Positions 8,807 to 26,919 of a stretch of DNA of 64,000 nucleotides are shown piece after piece. The stretch's first letter is position 1. Every line of letters begins with the position of its first letter. This stretch comes from Bacteroidales bacterium (lineage in GTDB: Bacteria; Bacteroidota; Bacteroidia; Bacteroidales; UBA932), in assembly GCA_028686425.1 (NCBI GenBank), contig JAQUBZ010000006.1:1-64000 (forward strand), written 5' to 3'. The position numbers were made by a program, and so were the translations under genes. The notes beneath the pieces are model-generated. The model did no database searches. It saw only the letters and a list, made by a program, of their open reading frames with translations, and was not told where the DNA came from.

Positions 8807-8839
8807 AAAACTCCCGCGTACGTTGCCGTACCACGGGAG
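8807..8839 (-). terminator. Terminator of the beta-helix protein gene
   Basis: On the minus strand CTCCCG and GTACG arms pair across a GCAA loop (one small bulge), followed by TTTTGATTTG. It lies 25 bases past the stop codon. Confidence 0.55.
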
Positions 8840-8863
8840 TCTTATCTGTATGATCTGATTGTT

Positions 8864-10297
8864 CTATTCCATTGGTGTTGCCTGAGCACCGTATCCAGAT
8901 TCAACGCCGAATAGTTCAACGGCATTGTCGAAGTTGTATCGGTTGCCGAACATCGAGACACGTGTGGTCGAAGTTCCCTGTTTGTTGAGTCCGTGAGCCT
9001 CTCTGTACTGATTGGCAGCAGAATTGGCATCATAGCTCTCTGTTGTCATCACTTTTAGAGAAGCAAATCCTTTAAGATACGGTTGAATAATCACATCTTT
9101 AAGCTTGCTTGACTCAGGAAGTTCGCGGTTGTTTTCGTATTCTTTAAGCATTTCCACTTCATCAAATCGTTTGCCGGGAACATAGAGCCATTTGCCACCG
9201 CTTGTCCCTGCCATCACCAAATCGCCCTTGTTCATAAAGAACAAATTGTCATAAGCAGAACATATCTTGCGTTTGTCTGCCGGAAGATTGGAATCGTCCC
9301 AGCCTGCATCGAGAGCCCCGAAATTGTTGCAGCCGAAAATATTGTTGTGTACATTGTAATCAACTCCGTTGCGGAAACGGTATCCATACCCCATACTCTC
9401 CATCTCTTTGGTTGTAGTCCAAGAGAATAGTACGGTATTGTGATGGAAATCCACTGTTGACTGATGTGCTCCGGTTGACTGATTGAGACCGCCTGTAATC
9501 TCGCAGGAAGCGTAAAGATTGGACACGAATACATTGTTGTAAATCTCCCAATTGCCCCCCATGTTAGACATAATTATGGCGTTGAAAGAGGCATTTAGAA
9601 ACATGCAGTTGCGTACTACAAGTGTTCCCGCAACCTTTCCACCGATAATGCGTATCGTCTTGTTTGGCGCTGCGTTGACAGGCATAATCCTTCCTGTTTC
9701 GCAACCTTCGGGACATCCATAGCGGGGATCTGTCGGATCGGCTTTGGCATATTCGTGAACCAATCCGAGGTCGAAAAAGATACCGTCTATTATTATTTGC
9801 GAACTTTTATCGGAAGTCGCCTCAATCATCAGCAATCCCATTCCGATTGTACCTCTTTGGGCAACTGAAGGTTGCATGCGTGTAATGTACTTTGTGGGAT
9901 TACGCTCTGTAAAATCGTCATTCCAGCCCCCTTCAAGACTTACATATTTCCCTTTTATCTCTATCCAGCCGCGATCCAAAGTTCCGAGATAATTTCCCTG
10001 AGCAATGCGAACCACATCTCCGTTAGAGGCTTTGTCAATGGCTTTCTGAATGTCTTTCATAGGTGTTCCTTTCGAGCCGTCGGCACGAGCGCTCCCTCTG
10101 TCGATACTCACGTAGATGGCGTTGGCACCGGAAAGGGACTTGGCCCTACTTGTGCCGGTATTGCTGCTATTACTCTTATTGTTTGTTACAGATTCGGCAG
10201 CATTCTTCAATTTTTTACCAAGATTGCCCAATTGGGCATTTGCACTGAAATTACATAATGCAATCAGCACCATACTCAATAGAATAATTTTTTTCAT
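8864..10297 (-). CDS. Secreted right-handed beta-helix protein
   Basis: A 477-residue exported protein with signal peptide (MKKIILLSMVLIALCNFSANA). A low-complexity Asn/Ser/Lys/Gly linker covers about residues 25-55. The body has repeated short strands with asparagine turns (IIDGIFFDLG, LVVRNCMFLNASF, WEIYNNVFVSN, VDFHHNTVLFSW, YNVHNNIFGCNNFGA), the pattern of a parallel beta-helix as in DUF1565 and pectate-lyase-like proteins. The opening of the helix (GTPMKDIQKAID then NGDVVRIAQGNY) is the usual DUF1565 entry. No catalytic residues could be assigned, so it may bind or cleave a polysaccharide or be a surface structure. It stands alone between a terminator and a tRNA gene. Confidence 0.75.
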   Translation of the reverse strand: MKKIILLSMVLIALCNFSANAQLGNLGKKLKNAAESVTNNKSNSSNTGTSRAKSLSGANAIYVSIDRGSARADGSKGTPMKDIQKAIDKASNGDVVRIAQGNYLGTLDRGWIEIKGKYVSLEGGWNDDFTERNPTKYITRMQPSVAQRGTIGMGLLMIEATSDKSSQIIIDGIFFDLGLVHEYAKADPTDPRYGCPEGCETGRIMPVNAAPNKTIRIIGGKVAGTLVVRNCMFLNASFNAIIMSNMGGNWEIYNNVFVSNLYASCEITGGLNQSTGAHQSTVDFHHNTVLFSWTTTKEMESMGYGYRFRNGVDYNVHNNIFGCNNFGALDAGWDDSNLPADKRKICSAYDNLFFMNKGDLVMAGTSGGKWLYVPGKRFDEVEMLKEYENNRELPESSKLKDVIIQPYLKGFASLKVMTTESYDANSAANQYREAHGLNKQGTSTTRVSMFGNRYNFDNAVELFGVESGYGAQATPME

Positions 10298-10334
10298 GTT
10301 GTATGTATTACGGATTAATAATCATTTTAAAGTA

Positions 10335-10342
10335 CAAAGCTA
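10335..10342 (-). promoter_or_regulatory. -7 box for the beta-helix gene
   Basis: On the minus strand this reads TAGCTTTG, 38 bases upstream of the ATG. No exact -33 box was found. Confidence 0.5.
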
Positions 10343-10403
10343 TTCAATCCGACTAATCACATCAATAAGTAAATTTACGTATAAATGTATTTTGGTATGG
10401 GCA

Positions 10404-10437
10404 CAAAAAAAATGAACGACTTTTAATCGTTCATTTT
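10404..10437 (-). terminator. Terminator of tRNA-Gly
   Basis: On the minus strand AAAATGAACGA pairs with TCGTTCATTTT over a 7-base loop, running into a tract of eight or more T. It begins directly behind the tRNA. Confidence 0.9.
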
Positions 10438-10438
10438 G

Positions 10439-10511
<73 letters not shown>

Positions 10512-10533
10512 AATTGTTTTGCTTTTGGGACGA

Positions 10534-10564
10534 CAAAGGTAAGAAGATTTTTTATTACTGCAAA
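10534..10564 (-). promoter_or_regulatory. Bacteroidales promoter for tRNA-Gly
   Basis: On the minus strand TTTG (10561-10564) and TACCTTTG (10534-10541) are 19 bases apart, a full consensus match 23 bases before the tRNA. Confidence 0.8.
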
Positions 10565-10582
10565 AAAAACTTACTACAACCT

Positions 10583-11605
10583 CTATATCACTGTCTCAAA
10601 CTCCTTAAGGAATCTTACATCATTTTCAAAGTAGTTTCTCAGGTCTTTTACCTGCCACTTGAGCATTGCAATACGTTCGATACCCATTCCGAAAGCGAAT
10701 CCGCTATATACTTTGCTGTCAATGCCATTGGCTTCAAGGACATTAGGATCGACCATGCCGCATCCCAGGATTTCAAGCCATCCCGTCCCCTTGCAGATAT
10801 TGCATCCCTTTCCCTTGCAGATATTGCAACTTACGTCAACTTCTGCACTCGGCTCCGTAAACGGGAAGTATGACGGTCTCATTCGTATCTGAGTGTGCTC
10901 TCCGAACATTTCCTTTGCAAAGAGGAGGATAGCCTGTTTCAAATCGGCGAAAGAGACATTCTTGTCAACGTACAGACCTTCCACCTGATGGAAGATACAG
11001 TGTGCACGGGCTGAAATCGCTTCATTTCTGAACACTCTTCCGGGACATAACACTCTGATCGGAAGATCCATCTTCTCCATTGATCTTACCTGTACTGAAG
11101 AAGTATGGGTACGAAGCAATATCGGATTATCTCCTGTAGAGATGAAAAATGTATCCTGCATATCACGAGCCGGATGCTCGGGAGGAAAGTTCAAGGCTCC
11201 GAAGACATGCCAGTCATCTTCGATTTCAGGTCCCTCGGCAACTGTATATCCGAATTTCTTGAAAATCGATATAATCTCTTCTCTTGTAATAGATATAGGA
11301 TGGCGTGAACCAAGATCCATCTTGTCACCCGGTTTGGTCAGGTCAAATGATGCTGCACCATCTTCACTATCTTCAAGTGAGTCTCGTAATTGGTCTAATT
11401 TGTCCTGTACTGCGTTTTTAAGAGAGTTTAATTTTTGGCCGAACTCTTTCTTCTGTTCCGGAAGAATGGTCCTGAATTCCTCAAAAAGCTTGGTTACCTC
11501 CCCTTTTTTGCCTAACATTCTTACTCTCAAATCTTCAATATCCTGCTCTTTTTGAGCCTTCATTTCACTCAATGCGGCCAGCAGCTGTTCAATTTTGTCG
11601 TTCAT
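10583..11605 (-). CDS. pheS: Phenylalanine--tRNA ligase alpha subunit
   Basis: The catalytic subunit of the heterotetrameric enzyme that charges tRNA-Phe. The 340 residues have an N-terminal coiled-coil arm (about 1-85), motif 2 (VFRNEAISARAHCIFHQVEG, 191-210; one residue past 20 is not shown) and motif 3 (GFAFGMGIERIAML, 302-315). Between them lies a CxxC-x4-CxxC insertion (C260, C263, C268, C271; NICKGKGC then NICKGTGW) that resembles a zinc-binding knuckle. No pheT is adjacent; alpha and beta genes are often apart in Bacteroidota. Confidence 0.95.
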   Translation of the reverse strand: MNDKIEQLLAALSEMKAQKEQDIEDLRVRMLGKKGEVTKLFEEFRTILPEQKKEFGQKLNSLKNAVQDKLDQLRDSLEDSEDGAASFDLTKPGDKMDLGSRHPISITREEIISIFKKFGYTVAEGPEIEDDWHVFGALNFPPEHPARDMQDTFFISTGDNPILLRTHTSSVQVRSMEKMDLPIRVLCPGRVFRNEAISARAHCIFHQVEGLYVDKNVSFADLKQAILLFAKEMFGEHTQIRMRPSYFPFTEPSAEVDVSCNICKGKGCNICKGTGWLEILGCGMVDPNVLEANGIDSKVYSGFAFGMGIERIAMLKWQVKDLRNYFENDVRFLKEFETVI

Positions 11606-11631
11606 TTGTATTATCTGTTCAAATTAGGATG

Positions 11632-11639
11632 CAAATGTA
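11632..11639 (-). promoter_or_regulatory. -7 box for pheS
   Basis: On the minus strand this reads TACATTTG, 27 bases upstream of the pheS ATG in the short gap behind arcA. Confidence 0.55.
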
Positions 11640-11650
11640 ATAATTATCCT

Positions 11651-12922
11651 CTACCATTCAACTTGTTTTCTGCTAAGAGGCATTGTCATGCACCTTGCAC
11701 CGCCGCCTCCGCGAGGAAGTTCCGACCCTTGTATGGTCACGCAGCATTTGTCATATTTATCAAGACTTTTCTTGTCCTGAATAATATCCCATGCAGGAAT
11801 TATCTCAAACCCATGGTTGTTCATTTCGCGAAGTGTGGCCTGATTGCGTGCATAACTCAGCACTTTGCCCGGAGCGAATGCAAAAAAGTTGGAACCGCTG
11901 TGCCATTGCTCTCTTTCCTGATCCCATTCATCGATCTGCCCTCCGCAAACTACAGGTTCCAGATCCATTCCGAGACGTTTCAAGACCGAAAGAATACTCG
12001 ATACGGTCTTTATTTTGGATACACGACCGTTCTCAATCGTGATATGAACCGTCTGATAATGATTATCTCCCAGAATCAGAGGCTCGAACACCATGCACTT
12101 GTCGCGGTCGAGCAATGTGAACACCATGTCGAGATGAATAAATGACTCGGGAGAATCGGGCAACTGCTGCACTATGACGTGAAATTTGCCTTCAGGATTG
12201 GCCTTGCACAGCCTCATAAGCAGGAGGTCTATCCCCTGAGCGCTGCTTCTAAGTCCGTTGCCGATGAGCAAAATATCATTTCTGGCAATCAGCACGTCCC
12301 CGCCCTCAATAAAAATATCGCGGTTGGTTGGCTGAAAATCGTGGGCATTAATAATGTCGCATGCAAAAGCACCGCTTCCCTTATATATCGCCTCCATAAT
12401 CAGAGACTCTCTCATCCTCACCTTGTTGGCCATCTTGCAGATAAGAGCGTTATTGCCGATTGTCACAGATGAGTCTCGCGTGAAATAGAAGTTATATAAT
12501 GGATACAGCGCATAATATTCGTCTTTCAAAAAGGCTGTAAGAGTATCAATTTTGGCCGGCAGGCCTTCAATCAGAACTTTTACCAGATGCTGCGAATTCA
12601 TCTCCATCAGTGTCTCAAAATAATCCGTAGCCTGCTCGGTAACGCATATCTTACCTATCAGAGACTCTCTCTGCTCCTTATTGTCAAGAACTTTGGCAAG
12701 TAAATCTTTAACCTGATATACAGCAGCCACTTTGGATAAGACACCTTCTATCTGTTCGTACTCCTTTTGAGCAATCGAAAGATTGAGAATATCACTGTAT
12801 AATGCACGCTGAGCCATCTTTGGAGTCATATTTTCAACTTCCGCCCCCGGCGTGTGAAGCAATACGGCATTTAGAGCACCTATCTCCGACTGAACATCTA
12901 TTTTAAGCACTTTATCTCTCAT
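11651..12922 (-). CDS. arcA: Arginine deiminase
   Basis: Hydrolyses L-arginine to citrulline and ammonia. The 423 residues carry the full active-site set: FTRD (D150), EGGD (E206 with D209), H263 and D265 in FIHLD, and the catalytic cysteine near the C-terminus (GGGGARCMTMPL, C411). Length and the terminal CMTMPLxR signature are typical. No ornithine carbamoyltransferase or carbamate kinase gene is next to it, so the full energy-yielding pathway cannot be claimed here. It follows manC after only three bases and is probably the last gene of a yraN-manC-arcA operon. Confidence 0.93.
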   Translation of the reverse strand: MRDKVLKIDVQSEIGALNAVLLHTPGAEVENMTPKMAQRALYSDILNLSIAQKEYEQIEGVLSKVAAVYQVKDLLAKVLDNKEQRESLIGKICVTEQATDYFETLMEMNSQHLVKVLIEGLPAKIDTLTAFLKDEYYALYPLYNFYFTRDSSVTIGNNALICKMANKVRMRESLIMEAIYKGSGAFACDIINAHDFQPTNRDIFIEGGDVLIARNDILLIGNGLRSSAQGIDLLLMRLCKANPEGKFHVIVQQLPDSPESFIHLDMVFTLLDRDKCMVFEPLILGDNHYQTVHITIENGRVSKIKTVSSILSVLKRLGMDLEPVVCGGQIDEWDQEREQWHSGSNFFAFAPGKVLSYARNQATLREMNNHGFEIIPAWDIIQDKKSLDKYDKCCVTIQGSELPRGGGGARCMTMPLSRKQVEW

Positions 12923-12925
12923 AAA

Positions 12926-14029
12926 TTATAAATATTTTGATTTTTCCTTAATTCCAAGGTCGGTGACAATATCTTTGACCGCCTGGTCACTTTTGGGGCA
13001 TACCAAAAGGACATCGTCAGTATCGACAACCATAAAATTGTCAAGATTGCGCACAACCACAAGCTTTTCTTTGTTCTTGACTTGAACTATCGTGTTTGTT
13101 ACGTTGTCAATCATCGCTTCATCGGCTTTTATTATGTTCCCCGACAAATCCTTATTTGGAGAACGCTCATATATCGAACTCCATGTGCCAACATCAGACC
13201 ACCCGAAATTGGAGAGAAACACCCACGCTTTTTTGGTCTTCTCCATCACTCCGTAATCTATGGAAATTGCAGGACAATCGGCATAGACTTTTTGGATAAA
13301 CTGAACCTCTTGCGGTGTATAATAATATTCTTCTCCCCCCTTGAATAACTCTGTCACCTCGGGAAGATATTTCTCCATTTCGTTTTTAATGGCTTTCAGA
13401 TTCCAGATAAACATACCGGAATTCCAGAAAAACTCTCCCGTCTCAAGAAATACTTTGGCCAACTCGGCATTCGGCTTCTCTGTAAATGTCTTAACCGAAT
13501 ATGCAGAGTGTTCGTTTATTATTTTATGATCCCCTTTGTTGATCTGGATGTATCCGTAGTTGGTATCGGCTCTTGTCGGTTTGATACCGACGGTAAAGAG
13601 GTCATTACTCTTTGAGGCGTATTCCAACGCACACGAGATGGTCTCCTGAAAATTGACCTCTCCCGTAATGAAATGGTCGGACGGGGCAACAACTACGGTC
13701 GCATCGGGATTTCTTGCAAGCAACTTATAAGTAGCATACACAATGCACGGAGCAGTATTCCTCTTGTACGGCTCAAGCAGGACATTATCCCTGCTTATTT
13801 GTGGGAGTTGCTTCTTCACAAGATCTTCATATTGCTCTGCCGTAACGACAATTATATTTTCAGCAGGTACAATATTGGCAAATCTCTCAAAAGTGAGTTG
13901 AAGAAAAGACTTGCCAAGATCAAGAATATCTAAAAACTGCTTCGGATAAGCATTTCTGCTCAAAGGCCAGAAACGGCTTCCAACCCCTCCGGCCATGATG
14001 ATACAATAGTTGTTATTATTCATTGTCAA
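12926..14029 (-). CDS. manC: Mannose-1-phosphate guanylyltransferase
   Basis: Makes GDP-mannose from mannose 1-phosphate and GTP, the precursor of GDP-fucose and of mannose in surface glycans. The 367 residues have the nucleotidyltransferase start (IIMAGGVGSRFWPLSR then YPKQF), the PSDH metal site and FGWSDVGTW near residue 280. It has no phosphomannose-isomerase domain. A second ATG two codons in is an alternative start. It is sandwiched between yraN (5 bases) and arcA (3 bases). Confidence 0.93.
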   Translation of the reverse strand: MTMNNNNYCIIMAGGVGSRFWPLSRNAYPKQFLDILDLGKSFLQLTFERFANIVPAENIIVVTAEQYEDLVKKQLPQISRDNVLLEPYKRNTAPCIVYATYKLLARNPDATVVVAPSDHFITGEVNFQETISCALEYASKSNDLFTVGIKPTRADTNYGYIQINKGDHKIINEHSAYSVKTFTEKPNAELAKVFLETGEFFWNSGMFIWNLKAIKNEMEKYLPEVTELFKGGEEYYYTPQEVQFIQKVYADCPAISIDYGVMEKTKKAWVFLSNFGWSDVGTWSSIYERSPNKDLSGNIIKADEAMIDNVTNTIVQVKNKEKLVVVRNLDNFMVVDTDDVLLVCPKSDQAVKDIVTDLGIKEKSKYL

Positions 14030-14587: not shown

Positions 14588-17023
14588 TCAATCGAAGATA
14601 TAACGCAGACTCAGCTGAACAGAACTTGGTGAGACCCTGTTCCACGTCTCCACCAGTCTCGACCCCCCGACAGTCATGAAATTATAGAGAAGATCCCCAT
14701 TTTCAGAAAAAAATGAATCAGAATGTCTCAAAATATAAGACTCCTTAAAACTGTACTCACGCCCCCATCCGGAACACAACAGACTGCCCACATTGAAAAT
14801 ATCAAACCCGACACGAAGAGTATGCCTCTTCCCTGCCGAATTGATGAAGAAATCCTGGGTAATCCTCACATCAAACCTGTTAGCCCACGGAGACACAACC
14901 CCGTACGGCTCGGCATTCTGCCCCTTGTGACCATTCAAATACCTGTCCTGAGTCACATAATTCCAGAAATCCTCCTTCTGCTCAGCTGCCGAATAAAAGA
15001 GAGCCCCACCATTTTCAGACTCATAAGTATAGCCCTCAAAATCTATATCGCGCTTACTCAAAGGAATAGGCAAAAGAGTACCTATCCTCTCCCCATCCAG
15101 AAGATAAGTATACCTGCCCTGCGGCCCCCCTTTATAAAACAGCGAAACCGTCGTGGCAAAATGTCTCGAATACTCGATACGATAACTTGCAGAAGCCACA
15201 AGAGAATGCGGCATCACAAAAGGATCATACCCCATCACCTGATAATCACCGTCAGAAATCCACGAATTACCATAAGCATACGCGATTCGTGCCGAAAAAC
15301 CATTATCGAAACCCTTCACTATAGAAGCTGTTGCACCATAATAATATCCTCCAAAAGTCCTGTCACTCCCCGGAAAACTCAAATCTCTGGCGTACATGCC
15401 ATCGATTGTACCCACAACCTGCCATGGGAGAATCACATCCACCGCCATCGAAGACTTCCATAGCTGAGGCATCGACAATGCCACATTACAACTTGCAAAA
15501 AATCCCGTACCGCCGCGCACAATCACTTTGCGTGAACCGATCACATCCCAGTTGAAACCTAACCGCGGAGAGAAAACCGAATCATCAAACCTCACACCGG
15601 CCATCATCTTGAAACGGCTGCTCAGAGAGAGCTCGTACTGCAGATATGCTGAAAATTGATTGCGGACGGAACATGGATCGCTGATATATTCATATTGAAC
15701 ACCTGCAAGCAGATTGTGAATACCGGCCATGTATGAGACCTCCTCTGTGACATCGGCCATACAGGCGGCGTTGATCGAAGAATAGCCGGCACGAAAAATA
15801 TTATTAAGTCTCCCTTCCATGAAACGTGAATTCATCTGTGCAGAAACCCCCATGCAGCTGTTGGTTTCATCAGTAATCTGTTTTGAATTGGCGTTTAAAT
15901 AATTGATACTTAAGCTGTTATTGCTATTGATATTCCAGTCCAGGCGTCCAAAAAGCTTCATCCCCGGATTTTTGCTGTTAAAATCCTTAAACACAGACGT
16001 TTGTCGAAAATTATCCATCTCTATGTTGGCGAACAGAAACAATTTGTCTCTGATAATCGCCCCACCCGTACTGGCACCGTAAGTCAGTCCCATCGGCTGT
16101 GTCTGGCTATCGGCATTGGCGATTCCTGCATCGGCAGCATAAGATAGTCCCTGCTGATCGGTCGAACTGCCCGGGCCATGAAAATACGAATACGCCGTAG
16201 CAGTCCATTTGTTGGAGCCAGAACGGGTAACAATATTTACAGCACCGCCTGTAAAACCGCTTTGACGCACATCGAAAGGCGTTGTCGAGATAGAAACATG
16301 CTCAATAGCATCCAATGATAGCTGTGAGCCGTTGGCAGGAAGATTGACACCAGTACCGTAACTGCCGTTGAATGGCATTCCGTTGATAGTCAGACGAGAT
16401 TGTGTCTGATCACCGCCTGAGATATATGCATGATTATCCGAAACGAAAGTTCGCGGAGATAGTTTCAGAACATCATTTATGCTGTGACTGAGTGTCGGGA
16501 GTGTCCCGATAGTATTTTGATCGATTGAAATCCGGTCTGAAAAATGGTCGTTGGCAACTGAAGAATTCGGGGATAAAGCCATTACTGGCGGCTGCGGCTC
16601 ATCCATATCGAAAGAGGCCTCCTGAAAAACTTCATTAATCACATAGTTGTCTCCATGAGCCACATAGATATTTTCCGCCGTTATGGTTCGATATCCAAGC
16701 ATCTGTATCTTAATAGAATACGGTCCGCCGGGAATAACATTCATTATGCAGAATCGTCCCTTGAAATCGGTTGTAGCATAATATCTCACACCGGACGCTT
16801 TGTTTGTCGCGATAATCGAAGCATCAGCAACCGGACCATAGGAATCCTTCATGTAGCCGCTGATTGTTGCAGTAGTAATCTGAGCGTAAATCGAAAACGA
16901 TAGGCACAAAACCACCGCTGTTGAAACAAACTGTCTGATAATCTGAGTGATATTGCTTTGGCAAATGATTCGGTTATTGGTTCCGAATTCATTTTCGATA
17001 TTCTTATTTATAATGATGCCCAT
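14588..17023 (-). CDS. TonB-dependent receptor, CarboxypepD_reg type, short form
   Basis: An outer-membrane transporter of 811 residues. The signal peptide is preceded by ~30 extra residues (hydrophobic core STAVVLCLSFSIYA). Then come a carboxypeptidase-regulatory-like domain (ITTATISGYMKDSYGPVADA, about 50-135), a plug (LPTLSHSINDVLKLSPRTFV; SRLTINGMPFNGSYGTG) and a beta-barrel ending in aromatic RYIFD. The plug segment ISTTPFDVRQSGFTGGAVNIVTR is the same as in the larger receptor at 19334 (given here as a region, residues near 245-270). At 811 residues it is about 280 shorter than that paralogue, mainly in the barrel. It has its own promoter. Substrate unknown. Confidence 0.88.
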   Translation of the reverse strand: MGIIINKNIENEFGTNNRIICQSNITQIIRQFVSTAVVLCLSFSIYAQITTATISGYMKDSYGPVADASIIATNKASGVRYYATTDFKGRFCIMNVIPGGPYSIKIQMLGYRTITAENIYVAHGDNYVINEVFQEASFDMDEPQPPVMALSPNSSVANDHFSDRISIDQNTIGTLPTLSHSINDVLKLSPRTFVSDNHAYISGGDQTQSRLTINGMPFNGSYGTGVNLPANGSQLSLDAIEHVSISTTPFDVRQSGFTGGAVNIVTRSGSNKWTATAYSYFHGPGSSTDQQGLSYAADAGIANADSQTQPMGLTYGASTGGAIIRDKLFLFANIEMDNFRQTSVFKDFNSKNPGMKLFGRLDWNINSNNSLSINYLNANSKQITDETNSCMGVSAQMNSRFMEGRLNNIFRAGYSSINAACMADVTEEVSYMAGIHNLLAGVQYEYISDPCSVRNQFSAYLQYELSLSSRFKMMAGVRFDDSVFSPRLGFNWDVIGSRKVIVRGGTGFFASCNVALSMPQLWKSSMAVDVILPWQVVGTIDGMYARDLSFPGSDRTFGGYYYGATASIVKGFDNGFSARIAYAYGNSWISDGDYQVMGYDPFVMPHSLVASASYRIEYSRHFATTVSLFYKGGPQGRYTYLLDGERIGTLLPIPLSKRDIDFEGYTYESENGGALFYSAAEQKEDFWNYVTQDRYLNGHKGQNAEPYGVVSPWANRFDVRITQDFFINSAGKRHTLRVGFDIFNVGSLLCSGWGREYSFKESYILRHSDSFFSENGDLLYNFMTVGGSRLVETWNRVSPSSVQLSLRYIFD

Positions 17024-17081
17024 AGTTTATCCTATAATGATGATTATTAAAGAATCCATAAAGTCTATAAATAATAATACA

Positions 17082-17111
17082 AAGATAGGAAAATGTCTCG
17101 CCCACCGCAAA
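17082..17111 (-). promoter_or_regulatory. Promoter for the short TonB receptor
   Basis: On the minus strand TTTG (17108-17111) and TATCTTTG (17082-17089) lie 18 bases apart, close to consensus. Confidence 0.6.
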
Positions 17112-17149
17112 AACGTGACCTAAAATAACGCAACTGACCACAACACATA

Positions 17150-17655
17150 TTTGCCGAACATCATGTGCACTGATCATCATAACATCGCCACAGCAAACAT
17201 TATTCCCGAATTTACGTATACGGTAGAATTGGTGTTACTATACTGACGTCTGGCTGATCGGCGATGGTGAGAGAGTGAATTGCTTCTGGCTGATCGGCGG
17301 TTTTGATTGACGGCATTGATTGTCGGCATTGATTGACGGCGATGATTGACGGCGTCGGGGGAGTGACTATCAACGTCTGCAAAGCATTGACTGTCAGAAA
17401 CTTCTGCGAGTATTCGGGCAAGTCAAGGCACTGACTGTCAGGCACTTCTGCGAAGCAGGACGCCACGAGCAATGAAAACTAGCGAAAGAACGTTATTATC
17501 ATTTGTGCATCCAAGCTAAGTGGCGGTGGCTACTGGTGACAACTGATTCAAATGGTGGCAACGATTTCGATGGATGACAGCTGATTGGAGTGGTAGTAAC
17601 GGATTGAATCGGGCATAGGCAGCAGAGCATGGGCAACAGAGCGTAGGCAGGGCGT
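17150..17655. repeat. Non-coding region with degenerate short repeats
   Basis: About 500 bases without a credible gene, built from imperfect short repeats. Examples are GATTGACGGC and variants (five or so copies at 17305-17355), CTGGCTGATCGGCG (twice, 17249-17300), GACTGTCAG with CTTCTGCGA (twice, 17389-17455), and GGCATAGGCAGC / GGGCAACAGAGCGTAGGCAG near 17610-17650. An 86-codon minus-strand frame here consists of the repeats and is not accepted as a gene. It may be slippage-expanded spacer or decayed coding DNA. Confidence 0.5.
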
Positions 17656-17697
17656 AAAAAAAGAAGTTGACCGGAAAGTCAATTGACTTTGAGGTCA
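17656..17697 (-). terminator. Terminator of the TonB/OB-fold lipoprotein operon
   Basis: On the minus strand TGACC pairs with GGTCA and encloses the self-complementary AAAGTCAATTGACTTT. A CTTCTTTTTTT tract follows. It lies 28 bases past the lipoprotein stop. Confidence 0.7.
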
Positions 17698-17725
17698 GCC
17701 TCCTTAATAATTTTACAAATAAAAT

Positions 17726-19324
17726 TTATTTCTTACCTGCGAAGAAACCCATAAGACCTTCTTCTTTCTGATCTTCTACTTTTGCACCTGCATACTGACC
17801 TCTCTGGCAGCAGATAGATATTTCATCACCTGCGGCAAGACCAAGATCTGCAAATTTCTTATCATTTACATGCTTCTTGGTAGAGAAGTTATAAGCGTAT
17901 GTAGATGTCAGACCGTAGATATATACATACCCTGTACCATCTTCAAGATAGAAGTTACCATATACATCACTCTTTATCTCCTTAACTGAACCGGTAAGTC
18001 TATACCATTTATCAGTACTTACGGGAGCCGCAAGAAAAGCGCTTACTGAAATTTCCTGTGAGTGTGACACATGATAAGCAAGACCCACCTGGTCAACCTG
18101 ATCGGCAACTTTAGAACCAAGATAAGCAGAACGGGTACCAATCAAAGTAACCTGATCACCTTCTTTGATGTCGAGAGACGCAAATGATTTGTCGTTCTTT
18201 GCCTGAGGAGTAGCGGTAAGTCCATATACATAAACATAACCTGTGTAGTCCTCAAGATAGAAGTTGCCATAAGTTGCATTTACGACCTGTTTAACTTTAC
18301 CTGAAATCTTATAAAGAGCATTTGCTGAAACTTCTCTTGCAAGGAAGTCGGCAACAGTAAGCTCAACGATATTACCCTCCTGGTTGATTGTAACAGCCAC
18401 TGTAGAAGAGTTTTTGCCACTTGCTGAAGAGAAAGAGACTTCTCCCTTTCTTCCACCGCCCGGATTTTCGGCAATCTGAAGAGCTACAACTGTAGTATCA
18501 GGATTATCTGAATCAATAGCTTTTACCTTTTTGATAGATGTTACACCAATCCACGATTTGTATTCGTCAGGTATGGTAACACCTATTTCAGTACCTTTTA
18601 CAATAAATTTGGCAATTGCTTCACCACCTTTATTGCCTACGCTGATATTTTCATTAACAGCCTTAATTAGAGACTTGGTGATAGAAACAACTTTAACATC
18701 AACAAGTTCGACTGTACTGCCGTAAGTGGTTTTAGGACCTTTTACAGTAACAACGTCACCTGCTTCAATACCAATTTTTGACCAATTGTAGCTGCCTGTT
18801 GCATCTACAGTACCATAAATGTAGATTGAACCTGTACCATCATCAAGGTACCAGTTGCCATAAGTAGTATTGGCAATAGAGGTACAAACACCTTTCACTA
18901 TATAGGACTTGCCGTCAGGGCCTGCAATCACTTCTGCACAAGTAGCTTGAGAAGCTGTTACTTCACCTTGACGCACTATGATATTCTGGATTTTGTCTCC
19001 AACAGAGATGGTGAGAGTTGTCTCTCTTCCTGCCTGAGTGCTTGGAGCCGAGAAAGAAAGTTTGATAGATCCCGGTGTACCTGAAAGCTGACTTACAGTG
19101 AGCCATGAAGGAAGCGGAGATGCATCTGACAAAACAAATGCCCAATTATCGGTAGCATTCAAATCAATGGCAACAGTTCCACCTGAAAGGGGTATGCTTA
19201 CAAATGTCTGAGAGAGCTGAAGCTCTTTCAAAGAGGAGGTCTTATATTCTTCTGTACATCCGACAAAAAGAAGTGCGCAAGCCAGAAGAGATGTGAATAA
19301 ATATTTTAATTTCATAATATTCAT
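17726..19324 (-). CDS. Lipoprotein with BACON domain and three OB-fold-like repeats
   Basis: A surface or periplasmic lipoprotein of 532 residues (lipobox LLFVGC; an alternative ATG three codons later). After an N-terminal BACON domain (about 35-120) it has three repeats, each with a near-identical core: TYGNWYLDDGTGSIYIYG, TYGNFYLEDYTGYVYVYG and VYGNFYLEDGTGYVYIYG. Each is followed by a GDxVTxxGxR-like strand typical of OB folds. A second BACON-like domain sits between repeats one and two. OB folds in such proteins bind nucleic acid or sugar. It lies 9 bases behind a TonB receptor gene and is likely its partner. The nearby nuclease lipoprotein also has OB-fold-like repeats. Confidence 0.75.
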   Translation of the reverse strand: MNIMKLKYLFTSLLACALLFVGCTEEYKTSSLKELQLSQTFVSIPLSGGTVAIDLNATDNWAFVLSDASPLPSWLTVSQLSGTPGSIKLSFSAPSTQAGRETTLTISVGDKIQNIIVRQGEVTASQATCAEVIAGPDGKSYIVKGVCTSIANTTYGNWYLDDGTGSIYIYGTVDATGSYNWSKIGIEAGDVVTVKGPKTTYGSTVELVDVKVVSITKSLIKAVNENISVGNKGGEAIAKFIVKGTEIGVTIPDEYKSWIGVTSIKKVKAIDSDNPDTTVVALQIAENPGGGRKGEVSFSSASGKNSSTVAVTINQEGNIVELTVADFLAREVSANALYKISGKVKQVVNATYGNFYLEDYTGYVYVYGLTATPQAKNDKSFASLDIKEGDQVTLIGTRSAYLGSKVADQVDQVGLAYHVSHSQEISVSAFLAAPVSTDKWYRLTGSVKEIKSDVYGNFYLEDGTGYVYIYGLTSTYAYNFSTKKHVNDKKFADLGLAAGDEISICCQRGQYAGAKVEDQKEEGLMGFFAGKK

Positions 19325-19333
19325 TTATTTAGA

Positions 19334-22300
19334 TTAATTAAACATATATTTAATACCGATCTGCGCATACCAGCACTGACCAATAGCATTGTAGTATGTC
19401 CAAGTCTGGGTATTGCCACTGACTGCAGAAGATGTACTATATACAGGATAACCCTCACCATCAATGTGGTCAACAGCTATGATACGACCTGAATTCAAAT
19501 TCGGATTCATATATTTGCTTACACCCCAAGATGAATTGAACAGATTAAGAACATTCTTAATATCGAAATTAATCTGAAGAGTATTGACAGAGTTGCCTAC
19601 ACGAACTTTAAAATCATGTGAATAACGGAAATCGACTCTGTGAGTCCATGGAGAATATACGCTGTATGCTTCTGCATATTTTCCTTTATTCTTGCTCAAG
19701 TAACTGTCTTTTTCAAGGAAATCCCAGAAACGGTCACGATCGCTTGCAGATACAAATCTGATTTCGTCCTTATCTGCAGGGATGTAGATTACGTCATAGT
19801 TGTAACCGTCACCATTCATGTCGCCATCTGTCATATAAGTGTAATTGTAACCACCTCTCCATGCTTCATAGAAGAAACTGAAATGATTGTTAGAGTTATC
19901 ATTGAGAGTAAGAGATGCAAATGCTCTGTCAGGAGTAACATATTGTGAATTATGAAGAGGAGCATTGTTAGGACCGTCAACAGTAGGAATATATGTGAAT
20001 GCTGAAGAAGCATCTGAACCAGGCATACCTGTAAGTTCTTTAGATACAAGGTGTGTATATGATGCAGTGAAATCGATATTCTTGGTAGGAGACATTCTGA
20101 ACATGATGTTTCCTGAATAACCATAACCTCTGTTGGTGTTGGTAAGAACGAATGCGTCAGTCCCTGTATAGTTGTAGTTTGCAGGATAAAGAGGACGATT
20201 GTCCGGTCCGTTCAATCTTGTAAATCCGTCAACAGGCATAACGTCCCAGTTAGAAAGACATACACCATTGATAGTCTTGTTGAAAATACCTTCAACTGAT
20301 ACACTCATAGGGAATGATGTAGCGAATGCATAATCGACAGCGATAGAAGTCTTCCATACCTGAGGCATCTTGAATGTAGGATCGACAGCCTGAATTGTAG
20401 AAGGTTTAGCACCTGCATCAGAATTGATGTCGATAGGGAACGCCTTAGGATCAATTGAATTGAATTTGGCAATAAGGTCAGGAATATTGGTAATCATCTT
20501 ACCTTCAAATTGTTTCAGCAATTCGGCACCCTGAACTCCATTGACTTTCTTTCCGGTAGTGATGACGGCCTTGTTCTGAACCATATTTGAGTTGGTAGGC
20601 ATGTTTGTGAAGAATACCAATGGAAGACGGCCTGAGAACAGACCTGTACCACCACGTACTTTCAAGCTCTGGTCACCGTTGACATCCCATGTAAAACCTA
20701 TACGCGGAGAGAATGTCAGTTTGCTTGTAGGCCATTTGCCTGTATCGATCGAACGTCCGTTGTAGTCAAGAGCAAGGACTGCATTGTTGGTCATAAGGTC
20801 GCTGTTGTCAAAGAACAGACCGTCGATACGAAGACCATAAGATAATTTGAGGTTATCGGTAGCGCTCCAGTCATCCTGTGCATAGATACCGAGTTTGTGT
20901 GAACGTACACGTGCAGCAGGGTTCATTTCGCCTGCATAACCGTAAGTGATGGCAACAGTTTCAGGAGCAGCACCATTGAGGAAGTCCTGAAGGCTGTTAT
21001 ATCTGTAATAACCTGTACCATTTCTCTGATAAGCATTGTCAGCCATCTGATATTCATAGCTGAGACCTGCAGTAATCTTATGATTACCTGTATAATAGAT
21101 GATATCATCCTTAGCTGTGATAACTGTATTGTGAACAGCGTTGTTCCAAGTAAACAGTTCATAACCTGCAGACATGTAAGGAATATATTTGCCAACCTGT
21201 CCGTTAAGGATATCTATGAATGGGAACGGATCTGATTTTGTACCGCGAACATCGTCAAGCTTTGAGAAAGTAACGAGCAGCTGGTTTGAGAGTTTGTCGC
21301 TCAAACGACTGTTCAAATCCAAAGATGCCGAATGTACGAGGTTGTTCATCGAATACAATGAATTGGCAAAGGACATTGAATATTGTGAAAGACGTCCGTA
21401 AACTGCTCTTGTTCCGCAATCTGAAGAAGAAGCGTTGGTAGGATTCCAAACAGTATTGTTGGTATAGTTGTAACGCAAAGCAAGTTTATGGTTCTTGTTG
21501 ATGTTCCAGTCCAAGCGGGCAAGAATCTTCATATTATTCTGATCTGCAGGGTAATCGGTGTAAGAACCCGGATCGTATCCATATTTTTCCTTCAGGAAAT
21601 TGGAAACTTTTTCCATATCTGCAACGGTAGTGCGTGAGATGTAGTTGTCGGCATCTTCAACACCGTTTGTAGAAGGTCTCCAGCGGTTAACGACTGTAGG
21701 ACTTAATGAGTATTCAAAGTTTGCAAAGAAGAACAGTTTGTTCTTGATGATAGGACCGCCGAGGGTGGCACCGTAAGTAGTGGTACGATCAGTCTGGCGA
21801 GCGCCTGAGATTTCGGAACCGTTTACAGAGTTACCTCTCATGTTCTCATTGCGGTGATAAGCATAAGCACTTCCCTTGAAAGTGTTGGTACCTGACTTGG
21901 TAACAGCGTTTACACCACCGCCGATGAAGTTGGTCTGACGAACATCAAACGGAGAGATTACAACCTGAACCTCTTCGATTGCATCGATAGAGATAGGGTT
22001 GCCGCCACCGGGAAGATTTGAAGACAGACCGAAGTTGTTGTTGAAATTGGCTCCATCGACGGTAAAGTTGGCTGTACGGCCATCAGAACCTGCAAAGCTC
22101 ATTCCGTTTCCTCCGTATGGAGAAAGTTTGGTAATGTCTGTGATAGATCTTGATACTGTAGGAAGATTAGTCATCTGCTTACCGGAGATGTTTGTAACGG
22201 CACCGGTCTTTTCAGTTGCGAACTTAGAAGTTGTAGCAACAATCAGAACTTCATCAAGCTGCTCGGTAGCAGTCTTTAGAACCGCATCGCGTGTAGTACT

Positions 22301-22606
22301 TTCAGCGAGTTGAAGGGTAATGTCTGTGTAACGTACTGTCTGGCAGCCAAGTAGAGAAATTTCTACATTATAAGGGCCACCTGCACGCATACCTTGGATA
22401 GCATATCTCCCTTCAGTGTTTGTAATAGCCCAATACTGAGTCCCTGAAGGGGTATGAACAGCAATAACTGCAGCACCGGCGAGAACTTCACCTTTTTCAT
22501 CGGTTACACGGCCGTTAATTGATGATGTTGTAACCTGTGCATTCATTACAACAGACACCATGATGCCGAAAACCATAAAAACGATTTGTCTAATAGTTTG
22601 TTTCAT
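19334..22606 (-). CDS. TonB-dependent receptor, Oar-like, full length
   Basis: An outer-membrane active transporter of 1090 residues. It has a signal peptide (MKQTIRQIVFMVFGIMVSVV, then MNA), a carboxypeptidase-regulatory-like domain (VTTSSINGRVTDEKGEVLAG, about 25-110), a plug (LPTVSRSITDITKLSPYGGN; TANFTVDGANFNNNFG; VVISPFDVRQTNFIGGGVNA) and a long barrel ending in KYMFN. This is the Oar-like family rather than SusC. It is paired with the OB-fold lipoprotein 9 bases downstream and follows the nuclease lipoprotein. The substrate is not known; nucleic-acid fragments are suggested by the neighbours only. Confidence 0.9.
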   Translation of the reverse strand: MKQTIRQIVFMVFGIMVSVVMNAQVTTSSINGRVTDEKGEVLAGAAVIAVHTPSGTQYWAITNTEGRYAIQGMRAGGPYNVEISLLGCQTVRYTDITLQLAESTTRDAVLKTATEQLDEVLIVATTSKFATEKTGAVTNISGKQMTNLPTVSRSITDITKLSPYGGNGMSFAGSDGRTANFTVDGANFNNNFGLSSNLPGGGNPISIDAIEEVQVVISPFDVRQTNFIGGGVNAVTKSGTNTFKGSAYAYHRNENMRGNSVNGSEISGARQTDRTTTYGATLGGPIIKNKLFFFANFEYSLSPTVVNRWRPSTNGVEDADNYISRTTVADMEKVSNFLKEKYGYDPGSYTDYPADQNNMKILARLDWNINKNHKLALRYNYTNNTVWNPTNASSSDCGTRAVYGRLSQYSMSFANSLYSMNNLVHSASLDLNSRLSDKLSNQLLVTFSKLDDVRGTKSDPFPFIDILNGQVGKYIPYMSAGYELFTWNNAVHNTVITAKDDIIYYTGNHKITAGLSYEYQMADNAYQRNGTGYYRYNSLQDFLNGAAPETVAITYGYAGEMNPAARVRSHKLGIYAQDDWSATDNLKLSYGLRIDGLFFDNSDLMTNNAVLALDYNGRSIDTGKWPTSKLTFSPRIGFTWDVNGDQSLKVRGGTGLFSGRLPLVFFTNMPTNSNMVQNKAVITTGKKVNGVQGAELLKQFEGKMITNIPDLIAKFNSIDPKAFPIDINSDAGAKPSTIQAVDPTFKMPQVWKTSIAVDYAFATSFPMSVSVEGIFNKTINGVCLSNWDVMPVDGFTRLNGPDNRPLYPANYNYTGTDAFVLTNTNRGYGYSGNIMFRMSPTKNIDFTASYTHLVSKELTGMPGSDASSAFTYIPTVDGPNNAPLHNSQYVTPDRAFASLTLNDNSNNHFSFFYEAWRGGYNYTYMTDGDMNGDGYNYDVIYIPADKDEIRFVSASDRDRFWDFLEKDSYLSKNKGKYAEAYSVYSPWTHRVDFRYSHDFKVRVGNSVNTLQINFDIKNVLNLFNSSWGVSKYMNPNLNSGRIIAVDHIDGEGYPVYSTSSAVSGNTQTWTYYNAIGQCWYAQIGIKYMFN

Positions 22607-22640
22607 AAATATTTATAGTTAAAAAAATGATTCAGTTGTA

Positions 22641-22648
22641 CAAAGGTA
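22641..22648 (-). promoter_or_regulatory. -7 box for the Oar-like receptor
   Basis: On the minus strand this reads TACCTTTG, 35 bases upstream of the ATG. No exact -33 box was found. Confidence 0.5.
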
Positions 22649-22723
22649 AAAAAAGCGGACATTATTTCTTTAAAACTCTTGTATTTAGTTATCAACAATG
22701 ATTTAATTTTATAAACAATTGTG

Positions 22724-25465
22724 TTACAATCCCCACGAGGATGGAGAATATGAGGACTCGACTGCCTTCTCTATCTCGTCATCCAGATTGTGGAAAAAGT
22801 TAAACCCGGTCAATGCCTCAATCTCCTTTACGCTTTTTGCATAATATGCAGATATATTGGTATCGGTATATGCTTTATTTTCAAACCAGAAACCGATGGC
22901 AGAATAACCTCCGTTCTGTGAAGCACTCTTGCTGTATTTCAGGACAACCTTGAAATAGGCTTTTGGTATCGCCACATTTTTGCCATCGTTATCTTTCAGA
23001 TACTCTATATTGGTATCTTTTGATGTCTGTGCCACTGCACCGGTCACCACATAAAGCGTATCAGACGAAGAAACCCAGCTTCTGATCTTTCCCTCGAGAC
23101 TTCCCCATATATTGGCATTAAGTGTTGAATTTTGGGCAGTTATGTTTGTAAAATAGAATGTAGCCTTGTTTGCCTCTTCCGTGGCAAGTCTGTCGGCAGA
23201 AGGGAGTTGGTGTCCACGGTCATATCCGCTTACCCCGAAGCTCTTGAAGAGGGCCGCCTGATCTCTCTGTGGCACCTTCGGATCATAATCCCAGCTGTCG
23301 GAGCGGCTGCCGCTTCCCATTATACTTGAATATAGAGGATATGCCACCCATTGTGAAAACCTATTGTCGGCGTCATACCACATTGAGAAACTGCGGACCG
23401 TCTTTCCTGAAAGCTGTGTATCGTGAGATACGTATGCAAATCTCTCTTTCGGAGTAATGGCTGGCAGTTCCAACCAATTCATGACAGCATCAGATTTGAG
23501 GACCTGATATGCTTGCTGTGTGATGATGAGCTTGAGTTCCTTGTCGGTTACGGCCGCATCGGTTGTCGTGAAAGTTATGATCGCAACTCTTGTGGCGGAA
23601 GAACTCGGGTTGTCATTATATGAGATGGTGAGCATCTTGCTCTTGTCGCCGCTTGTCTGAGACACCTTGAAATTGCTGTCTGACGAAGTGGCTGTCCATG
23701 CGACATTTGCAGCGAGATTGACATCAAACTGTCCTGCATCTCCGGTCACGGTTATCGCATTGAACTGCAATGAAAACTTAGGCCCGGTATAGAATCTTGT
23801 CCCGGTGAGGGATGCATAATCCGATTTGTCTGCAATTGAAAGCTGAAATCTTGTACCATGCTTTCCTGCAATACCTTTCAGAGTGCCGCTCCCCTGCGGA
23901 ACCTTGGTATCTCTGAAAACGGCATATTTTGAGGTGAATATATCAAATGTCTCCCCTGTCTTGGATTCTACTCCGATGGAACGGTGTTCTTCTGAAGTGG
24001 CAAATGTCTTGTCAAGATCATCATCTATGACCTGTACGTCTGCAATCGAAACATAGACCGATTCGTATGCTCCGGTGAGGAGCTCCTTGACTGTAATAGA
24101 CTTGGCTGTAACGGCTGCAGTTCCGGTCTTGGCGATATTATCTATAGGAAGTCCGTTGACCTGTATCGGTCCATCCTCATATACGGAGAGTGTCTGCCCT
24201 TTGAGGCTGACCTTGACCTTATCGCCTCTGGCAAAATCAATGTTGTCGGAGGTGCAGTAGAGCTGGATGCCCGTCACACCATCGGAGACCACAATGGTCT
24301 TGGCTGTGGTATAGTTGTTCAATCCCCCGTTTGTATCTCTTCTATAATCACTTATAACAACTCCTTCAATAGCTATATCATCGTTGATTGTAACATCGGA
24401 CCCTTTATATAATGCCCTTACTTCGGCGATGCTCTTGACTTTGGCTCCTTCTCCTCCCACGCTGAAACGACTGCCTGTAAGAGAGGCGACGTCATCAAGT
24501 GACGTGATGCTGATCTGGATGACATCACCGTATCTGGCTGCTACTCCTTTCAGAGTGCCGCTTCCTGTAGGGACTTTCTTATCGTAAAAAGAAGAATATT
24601 TTGAAGAAAAGATTACAAACGTCTCCCCTGTTTTAGCAACAAAATTGATAGAAGTGTGACTATTGGTCGTTGAAAATGTCTTTCCTATATCGGATGCGGC
24701 AATCTGGACATCTTTGACAGCCACATACATGGACTCGAAATTGCCACTTACAAGCTGTGCGGCAGTAATTTCTTTAGGTGTCAATGTTTGTGTGCCTACT
24801 TTTGTGATGGAGTTAAGGGCAATGCCGTTGACCTGAAGAGGACCTTTGTTATAAACAGAGAGTGTCTGTCCTGTAAGGTTGACCTCGACTTCATCTCCTA
24901 TGGCGAAAGCGGTATTGTTTTCGGCGCAGAAGAGCTGGATGCCTGCTGTTTCGTCTTGAATGACAATCGCCTTTTGTGATGTATAGTTGTTCAGTCCGCC
25001 ATTGTCGGTATGTCTGTAATTACTTACAACGGTCCCTTTGACCAAAACATTACCGGTAACTTTCACATCCGTTCCTTTATATAATGCACGAACTGTGGAT
25101 ATAGAGGTGTATGCCGGTGCAGACTGACCTGCCTGCTGCACCGCAACGCTCTGTGTAAGTTGCTGTGATGATACTTTTATTATAGCCGTACGTGGTGAGT
25201 CCGAGGTGTTGGCGGAAGCCGTTACAGAGAAACTTCCGTTGTTGGAGCCTGATAAAGGAGATATTTCTATCCATGCTCCGTTTTCAACCGATACAGACCA
25301 TGTCGAATTGGCGGTCACCGAGATGGAGGAACTTCCCCCCTCTTCATTGAAGGATATACTGCCTTGGTCGAGCTTGAGAATTTTTTCCTCTTTAGGAGTT
25401 TTTTCACATGCACTTAATATGAATAAAACTAAAAAAATTGGGTACAGAATTCTTAAATTCTTCAT
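22724..25465 (-). CDS. Surface lipoprotein: BACON, two OB-fold (DUF5689-like) repeats, BACON, DRGH nuclease domain
   Basis: A 913-residue lipoprotein, counted from ATG 25465 (lipobox FILSAC, C20; a frame to 25507 would remove the signal peptide from the N-terminus). The order is BACON (about 25-110), two ~215-residue repeats, a second BACON (about 575-660) and a C-terminal DNA/RNA non-specific endonuclease domain. The repeats share STVRALYKGTDV / AEVRALYKGSDV, NGGLNNYT and GSGTLKG. The nuclease domain has SGYDRGHQLPSADR, with the DRGH catalytic His, and the metal-binding Asn region NITAQNSTLNANIWG. It probably degrades DNA or RNA outside the cell or in the periplasm. It lies upstream of a TonB receptor and an OB-fold lipoprotein on the same strand. 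Confidence 0.88.
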   Translation of the reverse strand: MKNLRILYPIFLVLFILSACEKTPKEEKILKLDQGSISFNEEGGSSSISVTANSTWSVSVENGAWIEISPLSGSNNGSFSVTASANTSDSPRTAIIKVSSQQLTQSVAVQQAGQSAPAYTSISTVRALYKGTDVKVTGNVLVKGTVVSNYRHTDNGGLNNYTSQKAIVIQDETAGIQLFCAENNTAFAIGDEVEVNLTGQTLSVYNKGPLQVNGIALNSITKVGTQTLTPKEITAAQLVSGNFESMYVAVKDVQIAASDIGKTFSTTNSHTSINFVAKTGETFVIFSSKYSSFYDKKVPTGSGTLKGVAARYGDVIQISITSLDDVASLTGSRFSVGGEGAKVKSIAEVRALYKGSDVTINDDIAIEGVVISDYRRDTNGGLNNYTTAKTIVVSDGVTGIQLYCTSDNIDFARGDKVKVSLKGQTLSVYEDGPIQVNGLPIDNIAKTGTAAVTAKSITVKELLTGAYESVYVSIADVQVIDDDLDKTFATSEEHRSIGVESKTGETFDIFTSKYAVFRDTKVPQGSGTLKGIAGKHGTRFQLSIADKSDYASLTGTRFYTGPKFSLQFNAITVTGDAGQFDVNLAANVAWTATSSDSNFKVSQTSGDKSKMLTISYNDNPSSSATRVAIITFTTTDAAVTDKELKLIITQQAYQVLKSDAVMNWLELPAITPKERFAYVSHDTQLSGKTVRSFSMWYDADNRFSQWVAYPLYSSIMGSGSRSDSWDYDPKVPQRDQAALFKSFGVSGYDRGHQLPSADRLATEEANKATFYFTNITAQNSTLNANIWGSLEGKIRSWVSSSDTLYVVTGAVAQTSKDTNIEYLKDNDGKNVAIPKAYFKVVLKYSKSASQNGGYSAIGFWFENKAYTDTNISAYYAKSVKEIEALTGFNFFHNLDDEIEKAVESSYSPSSWGL

Positions 25466-25683: not shown

Positions 25684-26919
25684 ATGTCATATTTATTTAC
25701 ATCAGAATCTGTTTCTGAAGGGCATCCGGACAAGGTTGCCGACCAGATATCAGATGCGGTTTTAGACGATTTCCTTCGCCAGGATCCGGACTCGAGAGTA
25801 GCATGCGAAACTTTTGTCAGTACAGGATTGGTTGTCATTGGAGGAGAGGTAACTTCACATGATGCATACGTTGATATTCAAACTATTGCAAGAAACACTA
25901 TCAGGCGTATAGGTTATACAAAGAGCGAATATCGGTTTGATGCCGACTCGTGCGCCGTACTATCTGCACTGCATGAGCAGTCTGCAGATATAGCCATGGG
26001 GGTCAATCAGGCAGAACAGGGGGCCGGAGACCAGGGAATGATGTTCGGTTATGCTTGTACTGATACAGAAGACTATATGCCTTTGCCGTTGACACTTGCC
26101 CATATTGCACTGATCGAGCTTGCCAAGATAAGGAGAGAGAATCCCTCTCCGATGCCTTACCTTAGACCTGACGCCAAAAGCCAGTTCACCATCGAGTATG
26201 ACGGCAACAACGTACCTGTCAGAGTTCACACTATCGTCATATCAACTCAGCACGATGAGGATGTAAGCCAGCCCGAAATCAGAGAGGATGTCAAGAATAT
26301 TCTGATTCCTCGCATTGTCAAGCGTCTTTCTCCTGCAAATGCCGCACTTTTCAAGGAAGATTATATTCTTCATGTCAATCCTACCGGGAAATTTGTAATC
26401 GGAGGACCTCACGGTGATACAGGTCTTACAGGAAGAAAGATCATTGTTGATACATACGGCGGCAAGGGAGCCCACGGAGGCGGAGCATTTTCAGGAAAAG
26501 ATCCGAGCAAAGTCGATCGCTCTGCAGCCTACGCAGCTCGTTATATTGCCAAAAACATGGTAGCTGCGGGGATTGCAAAAGAGATGCTTGTACAAGTTGC
26601 CTACGCCATCGGTGTTGCAAAGCCGGTGAGTATCTTCGTCAACACATACGGCACATCACAAGTCGATAAAAGTGATGGTGAGATTGCCGCTGTTATCGGT
26701 AAAATATTCGATCTGAGGCCTGCTTCAATTATCGAGAAATTCGGGCTCAAAAATCCGATTTACGAGACAACAGCCGCGTATGGTCATATAGGAAGGGATC
26801 CTTTTGAAAAAGAAGTCGAGCTTATACGTGACGGCCAAACCGTCCGCAGGAAGATACAGTTCTTCGGCTGGGAAAAACTCGATGCGATAGATCTCTGTAA
26901 GAAAACTTTCGGCAAATAG
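25684..26919 (+). CDS. metK: S-adenosylmethionine synthetase
   Basis: Makes S-adenosylmethionine from methionine and ATP in the cytosol. The 411 residues show the three-domain family motifs: GHPDKVADQ (13-21), [12 protein letters not shown], and [20 protein letters not shown] with the phosphate-binding loop and conserved Lys/Asp. Expression is probably under the SAM-II riboswitch and terminator directly upstream. Its stop codon abuts the stop of the convergent lipoprotein gene with no base between. Confidence 0.97.

Follow-up and report, generated by a model that had tools for sequence, protein, structure and literature searches.

Extracellular DNA and RNA are plentiful in gut and environmental habitats, and to our knowledge hardly anything is known of how nucleic acids pass across the outer membrane of Bacteroidota. 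We found no description of a Bacteroides nucleic-acid utilization locus in the open-access literature. Natural transformation of Riemerella anatipestifer requires both the gene for a DUF5689 protein (RA0C_RS04920) and the adjacent gene for a CarboxypepD_reg barrel (RA0C_RS04915) (PMC8459023); it is also reduced in tonBA and tonBB mutants, the tonBB effect perhaps arising via iron (PMC8383284). Flavobacterium johnsoniae encodes two outer-membrane nucleases, EndA1 and EndA2, which are induced under phosphate scarcity (PMC8115612).

The window analyzed here is a stretch of 64,000 nucleotides from the genome of a Bacteroidales bacterium (assembly GCA_028686425.1, contig JAQUBZ010000006.1, positions 1 to 64,000). 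An initial annotation read one of its loci as a nucleic-acid scavenging system and called such TonB-dependent systems not well described. That judgement is fair where scavenging is concerned, but a related form of DNA uptake is already known from Riemerella; the tie to the DUF5689/outer-membrane barrel pair needed for Riemerella transformation was overlooked and is the most useful addition to that annotation. Within the scavenging reading itself, the nucleic-acid theme, the co-occurrence of the genes and the OB folds hold up, while the role of the second receptor, OAR2, as a dependable importer does not.

Layout of the locus and its encoded proteins

The minus strand carries all four genes of the locus, NUC, OAR1, OBL and OAR2, each of them intact (Table 1), so that the nuclease lipoprotein, the two TonB receptors and the OB lipoprotein noticed initially are all present. 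Only 9 bp separate OAR1 from OBL, and the two probably share one transcript because of this short distance. The gap between OBL and OAR2 is about 700 bp, with a promoter match just upstream of OAR2. Across the window there were five matches to the Bacteroidetes-type promoter versus 0.86 expected; in a sigma-70 scan, promoter-like sites were no more frequent than chance. The OBL-OAR2 gap also holds imperfect tandem repeats of 13 bp resembling TGATTGACGGCAT (17255-17355). Elsewhere in the window, a single reading frame (31391-34021) encodes an amidohydrolase part and, after it, a part of the beta-lactamase family. The region 35422-60217 encodes a lipoprotein of the SusD family, three more TonB receptors and two peptidases (S46 and M16), a set that may serve peptide use.

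Table 1. Features of the locus and its flank in the window.
Feature	Position	Strand	Details
NUC, lipoprotein nuclease, 913 aa	22724..25465	-	BACON - DUF5689 - DUF5689 - BACON-like - Endonuclease_NS
DUF5689 repeat 1 of NUC, predicted OB-type fold	24455..25126	-	model pLDDT 90
DUF5689 repeat 2 of NUC	23783..24454	-	52% identity to repeat 1
OAR1, Oar-like TonB-dependent receptor	19334..22606	-	CarboxypepD_reg and OMP_b-brl_4 barrel (Pfam), plug-like region
OBL, lipoprotein	17726..19324	-	BACON-OB-BACON-OB-OB
OAR2, shorter Oar-like paralogue	14588..17023	-	CarboxypepD_reg + weaker OMP_b-brl_4 match
Bacteroidetes-type promoter match TTTG-N20-TATCTTTG, upstream of OAR2	17080..17111	-	motif scan
metK, conserved flank marking the cluster site in relatives (context)	25684..26919	+	locus comparison

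NUC carries the lipobox ILSAC in its N-terminal region and matches DUF5689 (1.3e-63, whole protein), Endonuclease_NS (4.8e-45) and two BACON domains in Pfam. Both main families were assigned well above their cut-offs, with 154 bits against a curated 23 for Endonuclease_NS (PF01223) and 215 bits against 28.6, in two stretches, for DUF5689 (PF18942). The DRGH nuclease domain of the initial annotation is thereby identified as Endonuclease_NS with its catalytic residues intact: the motif reads DRGHQLPSADR, and every one of the 36 homologues from the examined loci retains the RGH catalytic histidine, along with the downstream N and E positions. By sequence, the nearest solved structures are those of Anabaena NucA (2o3b, the best at 6e-24), EXOG and Serratia nuclease. 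Cutting of nucleic acids is a well-supported prediction from the sequence of NUC, and its lipobox suggests that the protein is exposed at the cell surface. NUC was the sole match of its kind in a search of the window's genome. A phage origin was set aside, as the phage matches listed covered only the nuclease end.

The two repeats of NUC that were first described as OB folds are its DUF5689 units. The top Foldseek matches of the DUF5689 model were Teb1, the HIN domains of IFI16/p204, an Oxytricha telomere protein, RADX and RPA, with E values of about 3e-4 to 1e-2 and TM scores mostly of 0.2-0.4; some of these look-alikes (Teb1, HIN-200) are tandem OB proteins. Structure comparison shows the N-terminal half of the model, residues 2-120, to be an OB fold, which aligns with those of LysRS, RPA, MCM10 and HIN at Z scores of about 9-11 in VIA-align. 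The C-terminal half is OB-like by Foldseek only, in tandem alignments, beside a sub-threshold tRNA_anti-codon sequence match in one homologue.

OBL has a lipobox-like N-terminus, three OB-like repeats and two BACON domains; the BACON domains of NUC and OBL, which resemble those of glycoside hydrolases, extend the parts list first drawn up. Repeat 1 of OBL (residues 122-216) likewise falls among OB folds by structure comparison (Z 11.1 and rmsd 2.1 over 88 residues against the Teb1 OB fold in VIA-align). OB-type sequence matches of OBL were weak, to RMI2 in Pfam (1.3e-6, below the cut-off) and, by profile, to archaeal RPA32 (E 0.02). A Foldseek search with the whole of OBL gave mostly multi-domain Ig-like chains at TM < 0.35, a poor result owing to the uncertain domain orientation of the model (pTM 0.42), and was dropped for single-domain VIA-align. 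An OB fold alone is no proof of nucleic-acid binding. Such binding by the DUF5689 and OBL units is reasonably supported by the structure models, whose matches favor nucleic-acid binders over the sugar binders that the initial annotation had raised as the opposing case. DUF5689, so far without known function, thus likely gains a nucleic-acid-binding OB-type fold.

OAR1 scored 49.7 bits against TIGR04056 (NCBIfam cut-off 368), which places it outside the SusC/SusD (RagA/RagB) group, and a domain search of OBL gave no SusD match. A score of 59.6 bits against a curated 475 likewise gave no assignment to the M949_1556 family lipoproteins (NF052645). OAR2 lacks several long stretches of OAR1 and scores lower against the receptor domains found there. 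In the relatives L074, L077, L078, L079 and L103 the gene occupying the OAR2 position is reduced in size, and four of them have lost most of the plug. The initial annotation counted OAR2 among the importers, but these comparisons do not support it as a dependable second one; probably it is a paralogue in decay or put to a new use, outside the core system. The genes at this position possibly represent a receptor turning into something else.

Two gene arrangements in the family

NUC, OAR1 and OBL lie together beside metK in six Bacteroidales assemblies (L002-L007) recovered by related-locus search and blastp, and the linkage is kept in many genomes of the family. Among 119 genomes sampled from this family, relatives of NUC were present in 59, OAR1 in 86 and OBL in 51; HMMs were used to annotate the loci over up to 20 kb. 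The nuclease occurs in two forms. In form A, the window's type, DUF5689 is fused to the nuclease, and the gene order is permuted in L085 and L086. Form B is an operon for an OB/DUF5689 lipoprotein, a BACON-nuclease, an EEP nuclease (PF19580, 3.7e-113), a CarboxypepD_reg outer-membrane protein and a DUF5689 lipoprotein. In the g2 genomes (L105, L106), OAR1-OBL adjoins the form-B nuclease operon. Locus L091 carries three adjacent related genes (8835-13141, about 450-470 aa each) between OAR1-OBL and the nuclease operon; the single one read resembles an AAA-type ATPase.

Each of the 20 fused nucleases in the 119 genomes has OAR1 no more than 20 kb away, and for 15 the distance is within 1 kb, simple synteny counts that are inflated because much of the synteny is common descent (for genome G357 the position of OAR1 was taken from the locus annotation). 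The clustering of NUC with OAR1 is not due to chance. Among the 46 separate nucleases, 33 sit with the EEP gene and the form-B receptor and 13 have no form-B receptor beside them; Endonuclease_NS genes of the latter kind mostly stood alone where inspected. A neighborhood comparison had been proposed as a check on the scavenging reading, and receptor and nuclease do co-occur in other genomes, in two alternative architectures. Form A (20 of 119 genomes) and form B (46 of 119) were never found in one genome, with a naive P of 1.8e-5 overall and a P of 0.011 within three mixed genera, both of which ignore descent. This lack of overlap suggests that the two forms functionally replace each other. 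In five loci of one genus (L004, L005, L007, L080, L081), 5'-nucleotidase genes follow the triad; the window's own locus has no 5'-nucleotidase neighbor.

Beyond the family, 296 genomes from across the phylum were searched with the form-B receptor profile, and 46 gave a match. EEP, receptor and DUF5689 occurred together in 14 of the 16 neighborhoods read; of the other two, L150 has receptor and DUF5689, and L149 the receptor without EEP or DUF5689 by these HMMs. From its domains and gene order, the Riemerella pair appears to correspond to this EEP-receptor-DUF5689 core of the phylum. In the window's genome, neither the form-B receptor profile nor a form-B-type receptor from the family (at E 1e-60) found a match, and OAR1 is of a different type from the DUF5689-linked receptor of the Riemerella-type pair.

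A scavenging model and its alternatives

We give an even chance to the locus being a cell-surface nucleic-acid acquisition system with TonB-dependent import and a mainly nutritional role. NUC, lipid-anchored to the outer membrane, would grip DNA or RNA via its two DUF5689 units and cut it with its nuclease domain. OBL, with its three OB-like units, would form a complex with OAR1 and hold the fragments at the receptor's mouth, in the fashion of SusD and SusC, and OAR1 would take oligonucleotides into the periplasm on TonB energy. Phosphatases and 5'-nucleotidases would then complete the digestion, and as this would end at nucleosides and phosphate, the main benefit would be nutritional. Import of nucleic acids through OAR1 is the weakest link of the model. 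OAR1 is commoner than the nuclease (86 versus 59 of 119 genomes) and often lies beside metK without an adjacent nuclease, for example in L088 and L093, so it may transport a different substrate. In addition, the literature found on DUF5689 function concerns DNA uptake for transformation only, not nutrition, which counts against scavenging. More broadly, we suggest tentatively, and with somewhat less than even confidence, that TonB machines specific to Bacteroidota feed on nucleic-acid fragments, OB-fold lipoproteins at the surface capturing and cutting DNA/RNA and Oar-like receptors importing it, with DUF5689 as a capture module common to the phylum's transformation machinery.

Natural transformation itself, the leading alternative, is a less likely role for the locus. 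DUF5689 would in that case capture DNA, the nuclease would nick or trim it, as EndA of pneumococcus does, and a TonB-energized barrel would pass it to the periplasm for ComEC, DprA and RecA. Such a role would fit the essential DUF5689 and CarboxypepD_reg barrel genes of Riemerella and the lower transformation of its tonBA and tonBB mutants, the occurrence across the phylum of a receptor-DUF5689 pair that in most cases has an EEP gene alongside, and the presence of ComEC- and DprA-type genes in the window's genome. However, OAR1 differs in type from the receptor of the conserved pair, which is unmatched in that genome. The ComEC-type genes of the family fall into a full-length class (about 700 aa) and a short class (about 350-500 aa); the window's genome has a ComEC-like frame of about 373-381 aa (G000:C35, L114:1576-2697), and the frames sampled in its genus, of about 356-385 aa, are of the short class only. 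As short frames are common in the family and may be active, they are not taken as decisive proof against transformation. The fusion of a nuclease to the DNA-gripping part suggests that the captured molecule is destroyed, and a surface nuclease with neighboring 5'-nucleotidases suits digestion better. Scavenging is favored over transformation, given the fused capture module, the 5'-nucleotidases and the retention of the locus with a short ComEC (in 13 of the 20 fused-NUC genomes the ComEC frame is below 400 aa).

It is quite unlikely that NUC only clears extracellular DNA, such as that of biofilm matrix, neutrophil traps or phage, without import and with the Oar-like gene as an unrelated neighbor. 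OAR1-OBL without an adjacent nuclease (L088, L093) would agree with mere clearance, as would the other Endonuclease_NS genes inspected across the order, most of which stand alone, but the several arrangements, the two receptor partners and the mutual exclusion of forms A and B are hard to explain without import. Highly improbable is descent alone, with NUC inserted once beside a metK-linked OAR1-OBL that imports other cargo and with OB-like repeats for general adhesion: the metK flank conserved across the family and the glycoside hydrolase-like BACON domains speak for it, but the permutation in g196, the 15-kb separation in g193 and the form-B adjacency in g2 need several independent events, and the structure matches are to nucleic-acid OB folds.

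Comparison with known systems

The locus supplies named, testable candidate genes for nucleic-acid uptake in Bacteroidota and suggests that DNA uptake for transformation and nutrient scavenging may have parts in common in the phylum. Like SusC/SusD systems, it combines a TonB-dependent receptor, a lipoprotein gene just downstream and an enzyme lipoprotein; unlike them, its lipoprotein is of the BACON/OB and not the SusD kind, its receptor is Oar-like (OMP_b-brl_4) and its enzyme is a nuclease. NUC has the same catalytic domain as Serratia nuclease, Anabaena NucA and EXOG/EndoG, with RGH, N and E intact, but here this domain forms the C-terminal region of a lipoprotein that also contains BACON and DUF5689 units. 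F. johnsoniae EndA1 and EndA2, in contrast, belong to another nuclease family (pf04231) and are listed as orphan genes (PMC8115612). Unlike the sampled phylum loci with the Riemerella gene order, whose barrel type is unmatched in the window's genome, the locus uses an Oar-like receptor. It does share with the Riemerella pair (PMC8459023) an exported DUF5689 protein beside a CarboxypepD_reg outer-membrane barrel; the Riemerella protein has DUF5017 as well, and its description mentions no nuclease domain, whereas in NUC the nuclease is fused to DUF5689.
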